From: a virus
Length of the DNA: 25,016 nucleotides
Virus record (IMG/VR): IMGVR_UViG_3300029259_000159
Location: 1 to 25,016 of that record
Reading direction: 5' to 3' (one strand)
In this document: positions 1 through 19,364 of the stretch, one piece after another
How positions within the stretch are numbered: the first letter of the stretch is position 1
Layout: the number at the start of each line of letters is the position of its first letter
The notes under the pieces: model-generated
Told to the model about the DNA's origin: nothing
Databases searched by the model: none
What the model saw: the letters and a program-made list of their open reading frames with translations, nothing else
Position numbers and translations under genes: made by a program

Positions 1-16
1 CGTTGGTTACAATCAT
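1..16 (-). CDS. start of a gene running off the left edge
   Basis: An ATG at 14-16 follows the TAA of the preceding gene by four bases. The GAGG element that ends the upstream coding sequence sits about nine bases before it, a normal ribosome-binding distance. Only MIVTN can be read before the window ends, so no function can be given. It would be the next gene of the early operon. Confidence 0.45.
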
Positions 17-20
17 TGGG

Positions 21-236
21 TTACACCTCGTCTATTGTTGAAATTATGTACTTAGCTTTATTAATCCAGCGCCTAGCAGTTTCGATACCGCCACGGCTCA
101 TGGATTCTTGAGCGTCACTGAGAATGCTCATGGCTAGCATCTTGTCGCCACCCATTGCGTCCTCGCGCATCTCATCCATCTCGGCAAAGGTTGCTCCGAA
201 CATCTGTACTTGCTCGTCTTCAGTCATTTTGCTCAT
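21..236 (-). CDS. small acidic early protein, unknown function
   Basis: 71 residues starting at an ATG with GAGGT about nine bases upstream. The N-terminal half is acidic and Met-rich; the C-terminal half (about 35-71) reads MLAMSILSDAQE ... ETARRWINKAKYIIS and should be mostly helical. I recognise this helical pattern from small hypothetical proteins of other phages but know of no function. It follows the 91-residue gene by four bases and precedes a truncated gene by four bases, so it is part of the early operon that begins with the ArdC-like protein. No membrane segment, signal peptide or metal site is visible. A role against host defences or in takeover is possible from position alone. Confidence 0.75.
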   Translation of the reverse strand: MSKMTEDEQVQMFGATFAEMDEMREDAMGGDKMLAMSILSDAQESMSRGGIETARRWINKAKYIISTIDEV

Positions 237-240
237 GGTG

Positions 241-516
241 TTAATACCTCTTGGTTAGGGTTGGGCAAATAGTTTTTAAAGCCGTGTATATATGGTCGTC
301 ATTAAGGTCATTTAAGCCGTAAAGGTTTGAACTGACCCAACTGCTAACACCTGCGCCAAACAACAAGTCAAAACAAAACCTGCGTTGTAAGTCTTTGGTG
401 CGGTCAGACCTTGAGAATTGGCCTAGCTCATACTCATCGATGACGTTTGGGTAATTAGCTAATACAGTTTCTATAGAGTCTTTAAGGTATGCGTAGTTTT
501 TGGGAGTGATTTTCAT
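241..516 (-). CDS. small conserved early protein (LNDDHIxTALK type), unknown function
   Basis: 91 residues from the ATG at 514-516, chosen because AGGA lies eight bases upstream; a longer GTG start at 564 would fall inside a strong hairpin and has no comparable ribosome-binding site. The sequence has an N-terminal KITPKNYAYLKDSI segment, a central RRFCFDLLFGAG stretch and a C-terminal LNDDHIYTALK motif. I recall this arrangement (LK..I...L / WDLL / LNDDHIDTAL) from hypothetical proteins on phages and plasmids, often near ArdC-type genes; that is memory, not a search. The protein is soluble and probably helical. It lies 76 bases after the ArdC-like gene, with a UUCG hairpin between them. Confidence 0.78.
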   Translation of the reverse strand: MKITPKNYAYLKDSIETVLANYPNVIDEYELGQFSRSDRTKDLQRRFCFDLLFGAGVSSWVSSNLYGLNDLNDDHIYTALKTICPTLTKRY

Positions 517-548
517 TGGGTAATTCCTGTGATAGTTGGTATTGATAG

Positions 549-564
549 GTGGCCCGAAGACCAC
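549..564 (-). other. UUCG-tetraloop RNA hairpin between early genes
   Basis: On the transcribed strand GTGGTC-TTCG-GGCCAC forms a six-pair stem (one U-G pair) closed by C(UUCG)G, an especially stable tetraloop. No U-run follows, so it is not a standard intrinsic terminator. It lies between the ArdC-like gene and the next early gene. It could stabilise or delimit an mRNA end, or be an RNase III processing site of the kind T7 uses between early genes; the role is inference. Confidence 0.45.
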
Positions 565-592
565 ACATGGTTATTTAGCAGTAGTGTGATAA

Positions 593-1477
593 CTATGCCG
601 CAACTTTAGAGTCATCAGCAACTGTCTCATAGTTATAATCATTGAGTAGATCAATAGCTTTCTGCGCCTTGCTTGCGGCTTGAAATAGAAACTTTGGGTC
701 AGAACGTAGCTTGCCAATCCATGATTTAATGTATTGAGCGTGGTCAGGCCGTACATCGTTGCTTATGCCTAGTTGGGCGCATAAGAACGTAGCACCTAAT
801 TCTGCAATCAATTCCTCAAAAGCGTAGGCGTCATCACCGAACTGCATACCCTTAACACGGTCTAGGCGTTCAGGGTTGCCAGTCCAATGAGTTAGCTCAT
901 GTAATAGGGTGGAGTAGTAAGATTCTGTAGCGGTGCTGGTTTCTGTGTCAATAAACAGGTTACGTGCTGGCATGTTTACAAAGTCCTGACGCGGATTGTA
1001 ATACGCTTGTGCTTCACCAGTTCTGACATCAGCACCAGTGTTCAAGACCCATTCATCAACGTGGGGTAAGGTCTGTACTTTACAGTCGATTGGCTCAGGT
1101 GGTGTGTATTCGTAGCCCTCCACTTGATCAGCATTAAATACCGTGTAGTTTCGTAAGATCATAAAGGACTCATCTTTACCACTAGCATCAGTGCGCTTCA
1201 CTGGTTGCCAGAAGACAATACCAGTGCCTTTGCTACCCTTAAGCACCTGCGCCCCCTTGTCTGCCCACTGTTTATATGTGGCCCACACTGGTGTTGATCT
1301 GCCAGCCAAAAGCAACAGATTAATTCCGCGGTAGTTTTTATTAGATACAGCGTTGATAGGTAAAGACGATAAAGCCGCGCCACTAACCCACGGCTTAACC
1401 CAATTGGTGCCGTTGGTTTCCATTAAGTCAGCGATCTTGTTAGCGATTGCTGTCATTGTTTCGGTCTGTTTGCTCAT
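593..1477 (-). CDS. ArdC-like antirestriction protein (zincin metallopeptidase)
   Basis: 294 residues from the ATG at 1475-1477, with GGAG nine bases upstream; a TTG five codons earlier is a less likely start. Residues 1-125 match the ArdC N-terminal single-stranded-DNA-binding domain: W26..PW30, P40.N42, K47.YRGIN52, WATYKQW and GAQVLKGSKGTGIVFW. Residues about 130-290 match the zincin-like metallopeptidase domain, with HELTH at 193-197 and a downstream EELIAE at 221-226 that fits the third zinc ligand. ArdC of conjugative plasmids protects incoming DNA from type I (and some type II) restriction and binds ssDNA. The gene follows a small ORF by two bases and lies near the start of the early operon, the place where T7 has the restriction inhibitor Ocr. 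Both domains look intact. Confidence 0.9.
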   Translation of the reverse strand: MSKQTETMTAIANKIADLMETNGTNWVKPWVSGAALSSLPINAVSNKNYRGINLLLLAGRSTPVWATYKQWADKGAQVLKGSKGTGIVFWQPVKRTDASGKDESFMILRNYTVFNADQVEGYEYTPPEPIDCKVQTLPHVDEWVLNTGADVRTGEAQAYYNPRQDFVNMPARNLFIDTETSTATESYYSTLLHELTHWTGNPERLDRVKGMQFGDDAYAFEELIAELGATFLCAQLGISNDVRPDHAQYIKSWIGKLRSDPKFLFQAASKAQKAIDLLNDYNYETVADDSKVAA

Positions 1478-1479
1478 GA

Positions 1480-1650
1480 TTATACACTCCAAAAAACTTT
1501 ATTAAGGCCATATTGCTTGGCAATTACTGGTAGTAATGGACTCACTGATAACTCAGCTTCGGCATCAATACTTCGTGCAGTATTCTGTGATACTACAGTT
1601 AATAAAACGTAGCCCTCAGCGTCTACAATGTAGTAGGTATGCTTAGTCAT
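1480..1650 (-). CDS. small early protein, unknown function
   Basis: 56 residues from the ATG at 1648-1650 (MTKHTYYIVDAEGYVLL...), with a GAG element seven bases upstream. A GTG at 1692 with AAGGA six bases before it would add 14 residues (MSLSLNQPTRVRII) and cannot be excluded. The sequence begins with a likely beta-hairpin (YYIVDAEGYVLLTVV) followed by a helix (TARSIDAEAEL). I do not recognise a family. Its stop is two bases before the ArdC-like start, so the two are probably translationally coupled. It is the first convincing gene after the early promoters. Confidence 0.65.
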   Translation of the reverse strand: MTKHTYYIVDAEGYVLLTVVSQNTARSIDAEAELSVSPLLPVIAKQYGLNKVFWSV

Positions 1651-1693
1651 AATAATTCTCACTCTGGTTGGTTGGTTTAACGAAAGACTCACA

Positions 1694-1912
1694 AAGAGTC
1701 CTTAAGTAAAACAACTAATTTTCATTTGGTTCACACTAGTCAGGCTTCGGGCCAGCTTGCGCTGTTCAACCCTCCACTTCACCTACTGCTTATCAATGCT
1801 CGCTCAGTCTGCGAATGACGGTCTTGAGTCGCTGCTCTATCCGCCCCTAGCACCACTTGTATCCCGCCAACTAGAAGCGGTACCAACAAAGCGTGTTGCT
1901 GCGTTGTTGATG
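1694..1912 (-). ncRNA. structured 5' leader of the early transcript (candidate RNA element)
   Basis: Downstream of the strong promoter the transcript runs about 220-260 bases before a convincing start codon. It can form CAACAACGC/GCTTTGTTG (1884-1909, one mismatch, 8-nt loop); CCGCTTCTAG/CTAGGGGCGG (1841-1880, ten pairs including two G-U); CAGC-GCAA-GCTG with a GNRA loop (1753-1764); and GGC/GCC (1743-1753). CTAGT.GGC (1866-1874) could alternatively pair with GCC..ACTAG (1736-1745), which competes with the ten-pair stem. The segment is visibly GC-richer than its surroundings, and its only open frames lack ribosome-binding sites. It resembles no RNA family I know. Structure by eye is suggestive, not proof. 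Confidence 0.35.
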
Positions 1913-1918
1913 CCATTA

Positions 1919-1947
1919 AATATACAGGGGATGTTTTATATTGTCAA
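1919..1947 (-). promoter_or_regulatory. strong sigma70-type early promoter
   Basis: On the minus strand TTGACA (1942-1947), a 17-base spacer and TATATT (1919-1924) form a near-consensus bacterial housekeeping promoter pointing at the early genes. T7-like phages rely on host RNA polymerase for early transcription before making their own polymerase, so a promoter here is expected. The start point should fall near 1912. Confidence 0.8.
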
Positions 1948-1968
1948 GGCCGATGTGTTATTAGAGCA

Positions 1969-2001
1969 TATATAAGGGTGCATATAGGTGTATATAAGGT
2001 G
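1969..2001. repeat. three degenerate ATATAnGGTG tandem units
   Basis: On the plus strand the units tatataagggtg, catataggtg and tatataaggtg follow one another with 10-12 base spacing. They lie just upstream of the strong early promoter. The spacing is close to one helical turn, so they could be protein-binding or bendable DNA, or part of the short-repeat arrays typical of T7-like genome ends. Confidence 0.45.
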
Positions 2002-2015
2002 ATATTAAGAGTCTT

Positions 2016-2030
2016 TGAGAATCATTCTCA
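2016..2030. promoter_or_regulatory. perfect 7-1-7 palindrome resembling a Fur box
   Basis: TGAGAAT-n-ATTCTCA is a perfect seven-base inverted repeat with a one-base centre. The Fur 7-1-7 consensus is TGATAATnATTATCA, from which this differs by one symmetric base per arm; such variants are common in proteobacterial Fur sites. It lies about 70 bases upstream of the strong early -35 element and downstream of the weaker promoter at 2088-2116, so it could block that transcript, or a weak promoter overlapping it. Any dimeric regulator could use the site; Fur is the best guess from sequence. Confidence 0.4.
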
Positions 2031-2087
2031 TCTAAACGAAAACAGTAGGTAGGAAAAAGAGAGAGTTTGGAAAGGTATAATGGTCGG

Positions 2088-2116
2088 CTGATAGGTGCTT
2101 GATAGGTGACTTTCAA
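2088..2116 (-). promoter_or_regulatory. possible second early sigma70 promoter
   Basis: TTGAAA (2111-2116), a 17-base spacer and TATCAG (2088-2093) on the minus strand give a good -35 and a mediocre -10. Tandem early host promoters are usual in T7 (A1-A3). The -10 overlaps a direct repeat (TGATAGGTG at 2089-2097 and 2100-2108, period 11), so the match may partly reflect repeat content. Confidence 0.3.
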
Positions 2117-2122
2117 GGCATT

Positions 2123-2135
2123 AAGAGTCCTTAAG
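2123..2135. repeat. 13-bp dispersed repeat in the genome-end region (second copy at 1694-1706)
   Basis: AAGAGTCCTTAAG occurs at 1694-1706 and 2123-2135, and a close relative TTAAGAGTCTTT at 2005-2016. Related TTAAAGAC and TTAAAGCT elements occur around 2300-2410. The clustering is confined to the gap between terminase and early genes and recalls the short arrays that flank the terminal redundancy of T7. Confidence 0.5.
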
Positions 2136-2300
2136 AGCATATAGTATGCCCTATAAAGTCCAATAGAATCAACAACTTAGCAAGTAGCGATGGTTATTTG
2201 GTGGTAATCAGGATTTCAAAGGGATTCTCAAGGGGTCTAGGGGGGTAGCTGCCGCCCAATCTCATTAAAAAAGGGTAACATATTTTTAGTTATAAATCTT

Positions 2301-2333
2301 AAAGACCCCCTAAAGACCTCCTAAAGAACCCCT
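2301..2333. repeat. three 11-bp tandem repeats with T7-like CCTAAAG cores
   Basis: The units AAAGACCCCCT, AAAGACCTCCT and AAAGAACCCCT are head to tail. The unit junctions read CCTAAAG twice, the same heptamer that makes up the SRL and SRR arrays beside the terminal repeat of T7 (established for T7). This is the best sequence marker that the physical genome ends lie nearby. Confidence 0.6.
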
Positions 2334-2487
2334 TAGCAATCCAATAGAAAAGACCACCTCCTATCTTAAAGCTCATGTGATATAACAGCATCCATGAGAG
2401 TTCTTAAAGACTATCTCTAGGTATGTGTATAGGAGTAGGTATAAGATACTACTACTACATTGCGCTATGTATCTTGAAGTACCACTC

Positions 2488-2513
2488 CTAGGGAAGCCAA
2501 CGAGTTCCCTTAG
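2488..2513. other. hairpin close to the terminase stop
   Basis: CTAGGGAA and TTCCC(T)TAG can pair over eight positions with one bulged base and a nine-base loop. No U-run follows on either strand, so it is not an intrinsic terminator. It lies about 90 bases beyond the terminase stop and could be a processing or packaging element. Confidence 0.3.
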
Positions 2514-2597
2514 AAGGGTACGCTAATTGCTAAACAGAGGGGGTCAGTGAAAGCCCCACAGCACTAAGTCTGTAGAGCGTTTTCAAACACTAACTCA

Positions 2598-4277
2598 CTA
2601 AATCCAAGAGTTATATCCGACCTTTTCACCAGAAGTGTTAAGGTGATTCATGAATTTATCTAACTCTTTGTCCATAAGTTCCCCATGTCTCTCTAGCATC
2701 ATCTCGTCTGCATCACTAGCCATTTGCTCTACCCAGTAGGCTGTAGCCATTGCTAGGGCATCTAAACGGTCATCATGGGCTAATGCCCCACGATCTTTAG
2801 TTATCCTAGTCATCTGGTAGAACAGTGAGTATCTTTGAGCTATGTCATTGGGATACTTCTGGATTGAGTCGTAGTCTTTCTGTATGACTTCCTTATCGAA
2901 CACTAGCTTGTGCTGATTCATAACTGGCTCAAGAGTGTCAATGATTCTTAACTCTTTCTGTTTGCTATGTCTGACTTCTTCCAAGGTCACAGGGTATGCT
3001 TTAGAAAAGTAAGGTTTGATAAGTTCACTGAACATACCATCACCGAAGTTACTCTCCACCAGCACATAGTTCACCTTGTTCTTCTTAGCTATAGCTACTA
3101 AAGACTCTAACGTCTGCCCTGAGTAACCACCTTCTACACCACCTGCATCTGGACAGTATAGATAGCCATTAAGCATCTTAAGGACTGCATAAGAAGTCTC
3201 GTCACTACCACGTCCAGAGGGGTCAATCGCCATGACTGAACCTGAGTAATCTACCCAGTCACCAGTAAGCTTAAATGGCTCGTAGAAGCGGTCTCCACGC
3301 ATCCCTAAGTTGGGTATATCTTTGACTTCAAGGTGGCTTAGAGTACCGTGTATTGGCTTCTCAGGAGCCTTAGAGACATCCACAGACATGACTATTAAAT
3401 CCTTAAGCTTCAAGGGGTGTCTGTCTGCATCGCTTAAGCTTGTATCTAGCTGGAACTGTAGGGCATAGCCAGAGCGTCCATAGGATAACTCACGTTCTAG
3501 TAAGTCTTCCTCATCGAATCTCATGGGGTCTGTAGGGTTCCATTCGATACTAGGGTCTGCCTCAAGTTCTAGCATAAGACTAGGGGCTATACGATCACCG
3601 TACCTGTTCACTTGGTCTGCTTTAGGATAACGGGAGGGCCATATACGAGTTACGTATCCTTTGTCCTGTAAGGCATCATATAGAGACTCTTCGGTCTGAG
3701 GAGTCCCAAGGTAGATGATCTTAGAGGTGTCTAAAGGTTTAAGTACGGCATCGAACTCAGTTACTAGAGTCGTTAGCTTCTCTCGCATCTGTTGTGTTTG
3801 AGAGTTATTAGGAACCTCAATGTCATCTGCGATTATAAGGTCTGCGCGAGAGCCTGTAAGCTGTCCCGTAATACCCACCGATTTGACACTAGGACTGTGT
3901 GAGGCCATAGCACCTTGAACATTAAAGGCTATTCTGCTCCATAGTTGGTCTTTGTCGGGGATAAGATGGGCCAGTAGTGGCATCTCCATAATGAGTCTTT
4001 GAGTAAACATTGAGAACGCATCCGCACGTTCTTTAGATGCTGATACCACCATGATCTTTAAGTCAGGGTCTAGCATTAAACGCCACACCACATAAGCACT
4101 AGTGATGTAGGACTTACCTACACCTCGGAATGCTTGGATGATGGAACGCTTAGGGCTAGTCTGAAGGTAGTCTGCAAGGTCGTATTGAACCTTGGTGGGT
4201 ACTGGTAGGTTTAGTTGCTTCCATACTAGGTACAAGAAGTTTCTAAAGTCCTTTAGAGGGTGCTTACCTGTCTCCAT
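2598..4277 (-). CDS. terminase large subunit (DNA maturase B, T7 gp19-like)
   Basis: 559 residues (T7 gp19 has 586). The ATPase domain shows a Walker A FRGVGKS at 50-56, Walker B LIIADDIE at 147-154 with E154 as likely catalytic base, and a coupling motif GTPQ at 191-194. The C-terminal RNase H-fold nuclease has the expected acidic residues: D352 in MAIDPSGRGSD, E408 in NYVLVESNFGDG and the D502/D503/D506 cluster in AHDDRLDALAMA. It pumps DNA into the prohead through the portal and cuts concatemers at genome ends. The ATG has GAGGAG eight bases upstream. It is the last late gene before the genome-end junction, as in T7. Confidence 0.96.
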   Translation of the reverse strand: METGKHPLKDFRNFLYLVWKQLNLPVPTKVQYDLADYLQTSPKRSIIQAFRGVGKSYITSAYVVWRLMLDPDLKIMVVSASKERADAFSMFTQRLIMEMPLLAHLIPDKDQLWSRIAFNVQGAMASHSPSVKSVGITGQLTGSRADLIIADDIEVPNNSQTQQMREKLTTLVTEFDAVLKPLDTSKIIYLGTPQTEESLYDALQDKGYVTRIWPSRYPKADQVNRYGDRIAPSLMLELEADPSIEWNPTDPMRFDEEDLLERELSYGRSGYALQFQLDTSLSDADRHPLKLKDLIVMSVDVSKAPEKPIHGTLSHLEVKDIPNLGMRGDRFYEPFKLTGDWVDYSGSVMAIDPSGRGSDETSYAVLKMLNGYLYCPDAGGVEGGYSGQTLESLVAIAKKNKVNYVLVESNFGDGMFSELIKPYFSKAYPVTLEEVRHSKQKELRIIDTLEPVMNQHKLVFDKEVIQKDYDSIQKYPNDIAQRYSLFYQMTRITKDRGALAHDDRLDALAMATAYWVEQMASDADEMMLERHGELMDKELDKFMNHLNTSGEKVGYNSWI

Positions 4278-19306: not shown

Positions 19307-19345
19307 AAAAAAAAGGGCAGAGAGAAATTAATCCCTCCACCCTTT
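19307..19345 (-). terminator. intrinsic terminator after the major capsid gene
   Basis: AAAGGGTGGAGGGA and TCTCTCTGCCCTTT can pair over 14 positions (three G-U) with a TTAATT loop, followed by a run of eight Us overlapping the stem's end. Placed 20 bases after the capsid stop, it corresponds in position to Tphi of T7, which lies just after gene 10. Confidence 0.85.
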
Positions 19346-19364
19346 AGAGTAGAACTAGAACGAT

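Follow-up and report, generated by a model that had tools for sequence, protein, structure and literature searches.

A predicted structured RNA in the early leader of a T7-like marine phage, with a candidate RNase III hairpin at its 3' end

Early leaders of described phages and the layout of the marine locus

The leader of the phage T7 early transcript is usually regarded as dead weight before gene 0.3. The order of elements in this region of T7 is documented as A1, A2, A3, R0.3 and gene 0.3 (PMC3276506), and in the T7 record the A1, A2 and A3 promoters are found at 498, 626 and 750 and the anti-restriction gene 0.3 at 925. The processing of T7 early mRNA by RNase III is also established (PMC4858673). 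Another phage RNA from the start of an early transcript is the put RNA of phage HK022, which is about 70 nt long and consists of two stem-loops, with putL located just downstream of PL (PMC9378689); the feature particular to this RNA is antitermination through the zinc-binding domain of the polymerase beta' subunit.

The DNA analysed here (hereafter the window) is a virus record of 25,016 bases with a T7-like gene order, whose early region is located at its left end and runs leftward from a promoter at 1947-1919 (Table 1). Between this promoter and the ATG of the first early gene (at 1650) lies the leader segment. An initial annotation had described the segment as a foldable, not convincingly coding and G+C-richer leader following a strong early promoter. 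The promoter is indeed present (TTGACA and TATATT at a spacing of 17 nt, minus strand), and the G+C content is 50% in 1701-1900 vs. about 37-42% nearby. In all six loci that have the first helix of the leader (P1), the start of TTGACA is exactly 35 nt ahead of P1 position 1, and this constant distance indicates that P1 begins at about +1.

The locus resembles T7 and T3 in that a host-polymerase promoter is followed by a few hundred nt of leader and then by a two-tier hairpin immediately ahead of the first early genes, with an anti-restriction gene near the start (PMC3276506). As in a leader of the T7 type, the promoter of the window is host-type, no gene lies between it and the first early gene, and a long imperfect hairpin stands directly before that gene. 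The two differ in that T7 has three tandem promoters vs. one here, and in that the whole leader here forms a conserved fold, whereas the T7 leader is not so described in the papers found; the likeness to T7 is one of layout, with no sequence relation shown. With the HK022 put RNA, compared by description and not by sequence, the leader shares its place at the very start of a phage early transcript and its compact stem-loops, but it differs in size and shape, having five conserved helices over about 180 nt followed by a further hairpin (P6). The leader resembles the RNase III-processed small RNAs of bacteria in being a structured RNA that cleavage within a double-stranded hairpin would free from a longer transcript, but it is part of a phage leader.

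Table 1. Positions of the leader, its helices and neighbouring features in the window (columns are those of the alignment of five sequences)
Feature	Position	Strand	Basis or remark
Early sigma-70-type promoter, TTGACA - 17 nt - TATATT	1919..1947	minus	top of 4 promoter-like sites in 1-4000
Early leader RNA (predicted), ~240 nt, from +1 at about 1912 to the end of P6	1671..1912	minus	alignment of relatives, pair counts, covariance-model matches
P1, 5' hairpin from +1/+2, loop motif CAGCA(A/G)C	1882..1911	minus	columns 2-12/21-31
P2, short hairpin ACCGC..GCGG(T/G)	1863..1881	minus	columns 32-36/46-50; consensus fold
Possible pseudoknot, P2 loop TCTAG (1871-1875) with CTAGG (1846-1850)	1846..1875	minus	columns 38-42/63-67
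P3, two-tier hairpin G(G/A)CGG-ATA-GAG[CAGCGA]CTC-AAGA-CCGTC	1817..1845	minus	columns 68-72/92-96, 76-78/85-87
P4, hairpin TCGC..GCGA	1800..1814	minus	columns 99-102/112-115; consensus fold, invariant
P5, long helix capped by CAGC-GCAA-GCTG (1753-1764)	1733..1789	minus	outer stem, columns 126-132/178-184; inner columns 139-140/171-172, 144-147/164-167, 152-155/160-163, closing on the GCAA loop
P6, two-tier hairpin with internal bulges, candidate RNase III site	1671..1715	minus	folding vs. shuffles
First early gene, 56 aa	1480..1650	minus	unrelated to the first gene of other carriers
Anti-restriction protein gene (phrog_7245)	593..1477	minus	downstream in 4/4 A-type loci reaching that far
Terminase large subunit, tail fibres, major capsid protein		minus	

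Conservation and comparative structure of the type-A RNA

Related marine phage contigs were gathered with the anti-restriction protein and the terminase as queries, and the collections searched contain only five distinct sequences of the leader as it occurs in the window (type A), viz. those of the window itself, L003 (the same contig as L035), L041, L050 and L052. The four relatives hold the whole or nearly the whole segment directly downstream of the early promoter. Between any two of the five contigs the 145-nt core is 93.1-98.6% identical, while the four-fold sites of their large terminase gene (TerL) are only 62-82% identical.

Two pattern scans of the viral collection yielded no further copies, barring two matches (in L111 and L113, to the pattern GAACAGCGCAAGCTGGCCC) that span only 20 nt of apparently unrelated, GC-rich sequence and were regarded as chance matches, and a covariance model run against 93 sources recovered the known copies only. 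No homologue of the RNA was found in isolated phages, plasmids or 84,980 species genomes, the genome scans being by exact pattern, which diverged copies could escape; within the reach of these searches, no laboratory phage is known to carry the type-A RNA. Among more distant viruses, those whose terminase is 65-66% identical carry different genes behind it, making them uninformative for the leader, and Roseobacter phage CRP-804, whose TerL is a relative at 59% and which has a related left-end gene, has no comparable promoter before that gene. The statement of the initial annotation that no known family was recognised agrees with Rfam 15, which gave no match in the window at the gathering score and, at E values up to 5, only sub-threshold matches, none of them plausible for the type-A RNA; ARAGORN reported no tRNA or tmRNA genes. 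Such an RNA is also not described in the open-access papers found, subscription literature being outside this search.

Folding energy gives no indication of structure for the segment as a whole. The 221-nt minus strand of 1692-1912 folds at -62.1 kcal/mol vs. a shuffled mean of -62.6 (z 0.12), the interval 1640-1915 is equally unremarkable against dinucleotide shuffles (z -0.18), the plus strand of the segment folds worse than its own shuffles, and only 1838-1912 folds better than dinucleotide shuffles (z -3.5). Comparison with such shuffles was the check that the initial annotation had put forward, and taken alone its outcome would refute the proposed structure. Since whole-segment energy carries no signal, comparative evidence was used instead, and the clear covariation seen in the same segment means that screening based on energy alone would miss RNAs of this kind.

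The comparative model, which consists of helices P1 to P5 and a possible pseudoknot, has 96.3% of its cells paired across the five sequences. The compensatory changes that the annotation had suggested looking for are found at seven pairs changed on both sides, four of them in P1 (which exists in three different stem sequences), one in inner P3 and two in the outer stem of P5. The count of double-change cells is 13 vs. a mean of 5.0 after shuffling, none of 500 shuffles reaching as high a value; when the partners are slid by 1-3 columns only 0-1 double-change pairs and 25-38% pairing are left, a control in which the model has an advantage, having been drawn with the same five sequences, themselves few, in view. 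In P3, the inner pair changes from G-C to C-G in L041 and the outer pair from G-U to A-U in three relatives. The outer stem of P5 takes the forms GCAGTAG/CTAGTGT, GCATTAG/CTAATGT (L050) and GCGGTAG/CTACCGT (L052), and one of the covarying pairs is a G.G mismatch in the window. The possible pseudoknot is 100% paired, with one pair changing from U-G to C-G in L003 and the rest invariant, while variation is almost absent from P2, P4 and inner P5, for which the support comes from folding and not from covariation. The model contains 24 G-U cells vs. one A-C cell, from which it follows that the minus-strand RNA, and not its complement, is under selection.

Two elements of the initial annotation are thus recovered within this model: its nine-position stem at 1884-1909 is P1, and its CAGC-GCAA-GCTG hairpin with a GNRA loop is real and caps the longer helix P5. 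Its view of the segment as non-coding also holds, in that no reading frame is conserved in the five sequences. A host-type promoter, structure from +1, conserved helices, a conserved 3' hairpin, the lack of a conserved frame and minus-strand selection are all shown by sequence comparison, and we consider it very probable that the segment is a structured RNA that is conserved and non-coding. In the place of the T7 initiator leader it represents a new RNA family.

The motif CAGC(A/G)(A/G) is present in the hairpin loops of both P1 and P3 (1884-1911 and 1826-1837 in the window), and also near the 5' end of the unrelated type-C leader of L055. This motif may be a protein-binding site.

The 3' hairpin and exchange of leader cores among close relatives

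The hairpin P6, which the initial annotation missed and which reaches past the span given there, is located about 20 nt before the start codon of the first gene. In the window it is short, with about 16 pairs and bulges, and when folded alone it beats shuffles in 9/9 loci (z -2.5 to -7.7), the three type-D loci giving the strongest values (-6.6 to -7.7) and the six loci of types A to C giving -2.5 to -4.4. Its shape is kept despite sequence change, the two arms being AAGGACTC/GAGTCTTT in the window, AAACGTCT/AGACGTTT in L003, where the loop is longer, and AAAGGCTT/GAGCCTTT in L055. As an intrinsic terminator P6 was rejected: it has no clear U-run and is unlisted by the terminator scan. The T7 leader region before gene 0.3 folds into a similar hairpin, and the shared shape and position make cutting by RNase III a reasonable inference; release of the RNA by this enzyme appears somewhat more likely than not.

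Close relatives of the window carry other leaders at this site. L043 (type B) has the promoter and P1 as in the window with a different core, L055 (type C) has another core, and a further core (type D) is common to L036, L039, L044, L045 and L058, in which P6 is very strong. At the amino acid level, the terminase of the window is about 94% identical to those of the type-B and type-D phages and 87% identical to that of the type-C phage. Types B and C are each represented by one sequence, and type D by five sequences in two main lineages, which were examined by folding. Rfam returned no matches in five relatives with other leader types, including three of type D that were tested. The elements retained in the widest range of loci are P1 at +1 and P6 immediately ahead of the start codon. 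As judged from these sequences, related viruses appear to keep a structured leader at the site and replace its middle with unrelated ones.

The leader of L043 (5727-5935) is a hybrid, with the promoter and P1 type of the window, a similar P6 and an unrelated core, the second hairpin of which (GGTAG-CAGCAACCAA-CTACC) repeats the CAGCAAC loop motif of P1. The type-D leader, a conserved RNA with a predicted structure that occurs in eight contigs in the same place as the A-type leader, contains GGTTCGGCTATTCGGAACC and a hairpin of 20+ bp; its loci include L036:4207-4400, L039:3295-3487, L044:2976-3170, L045:2862-3056 and L058:1877-2070.

The genes that follow the leader are also variable. The first genes of the window, L035 and L050 encode proteins of 56, 48 and 69 aa that have no mutual BLAST matches, and in L052 the anti-restriction gene comes directly first. 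Since the first gene differs between carriers, gene-specific regulation is unlikely, and the RNA does not appear to be tied to the adjacent gene. In 4/4 readable A-type loci the anti-restriction gene takes first or second place, and in L055 third, and a looser link of the RNA to this gene is possible. The first early gene (1480-1650) is hypervariable, with a different small protein in each related phage.

Possible function and alternative explanations

Taken together, we slightly favour the reading that the leader is an early initiator RNA of a T7-like marine phage, released by RNase III and probably acting in trans. In this reading the 5' end of the early transcript is a conserved, structured, non-coding RNA some 190 nt long, with P6 after it; host RNase III would cut P6 and free the RNA from the early mRNA, as with the A1-A3 leader of T7 at R0.3; the 5'-terminal P1 and the compact fold would keep the freed RNA stable; and in the first minutes of infection it would act in trans through binding to a protein or RNA of the host (or phage). 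Differing first genes and the swapping of the core between close relatives make action in trans, and not a switch for the neighbouring gene, the most likely mode, and we place this part of the reading, reached by elimination, at about even. The position of the T7 leader is occupied here by a conserved fold of a new family, which close relatives swap while keeping the processing-type hairpin, and the role of an early phage leader RNA thereby becomes testable by comparison and by simple swaps between related phages of the laboratory. A broader suggestion, which we make tentatively and consider to be on the unlikely side, is that T7-like marine phages carry an exchangeable cassette of at least four unrelated structured early RNAs (A to D) at a single site, with the early promoter on one side and the RNase III-type hairpin on the other, that are released in the first minutes of infection and act in trans on the host. 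If this is true, the cassette RNA would be the first host-takeover tool of the phage, ahead of the anti-restriction protein, with a target such as a defence system or a host enzyme.

An alternative to a released, trans-acting RNA is that the leader acts in cis and modifies the host RNA polymerase leaving the early promoter, so that terminators and pauses in the early region are read through, as is the case for HK022 put. The exact start of the RNA at +1, comparable to putL just downstream of PL (PMC9378689), its independence of the first gene, and its compactness and conservation are all consistent with such a role. However, put, with two stem-loops in about 70 nt, is a much smaller RNA than one with five helices over about 180 nt, and unrelated cores in viruses with near-identical terminases would be odd if all addressed one shared polymerase site; we regard this explanation as unlikely. 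Slightly less likely again is that the leader only stabilises or insulates the early mRNA, with P1 protecting the 5' end, P6 giving a clean processed 5' end and the core serving as filler. The most widely kept elements, P1 and P6, are those that this explanation needs, and T7 early mRNA provides an established case of RNase III processing (PMC4858673), but the A-type core is 93-99% identical including its loops and joining segments, and filler would drift.

A regulatory leader with mutually exclusive stems, as the initial annotation proposed, which would be an attenuator or riboswitch, is very improbable. Both of its competing elements can be drawn in the window, and the ten-pair stem at 1841-1880 has a z of -2.7 when folded alone; this stem, however, contains a C.A in three of the five sequences and no covarying pairs, and the long-range CTAGT/ACTAG pairing likewise does not covary and is broken in two of four scorable sequences (L050 and L052). 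ACTAG is instead the 3' side of P5 and pairs with GCAGTAG, where relatives have double compensatory changes. As both competitors are without covariation and are broken in relatives, mutually exclusive stems are unsupported, and all five sequences keep a single set of helices (P1 to P5). P6, without a clear U-run, is absent from the minus-strand list of terminators, and the first genes differ between carriers, which also speaks against a switch. Thus the part of the annotation that called the segment a structured leader or small RNA stands, through covariation and not through energy, and the switch is not supported. The weakest explanation, a short protein gene of 45 codons from an ATG at 1916, was rejected as scarcely credible. 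Each of the five sequences has some 35 codons of this frame open, but the ATG precedes the predicted start site and does not exist in L041 and L050, insertions of 2, 1 and 1 nt shift the frame in L052, double changes that keep pairs alter amino acids (P3 of L041), and the residues encoded by P1 are unrelated between sequences.

Some other parts of the window have features of their own. Four contigs with an identical terminase (L031-L034) all stop within 2300-2490, a region rich in short repeats (e.g. TTAAGAGTC) that is probably a terminal repeat. Two strong hairpins are present at 2473-2596, directly after the terminase gene, and ~100 nt of this interval are conserved even in relatives with a different leader. 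The major capsid gene is directly followed, at 19309-19364, by a strong hairpin that resembles a terminator and includes a T run (AAAGGG..CCCTTTTTT); its position is that of the T7 late terminator.
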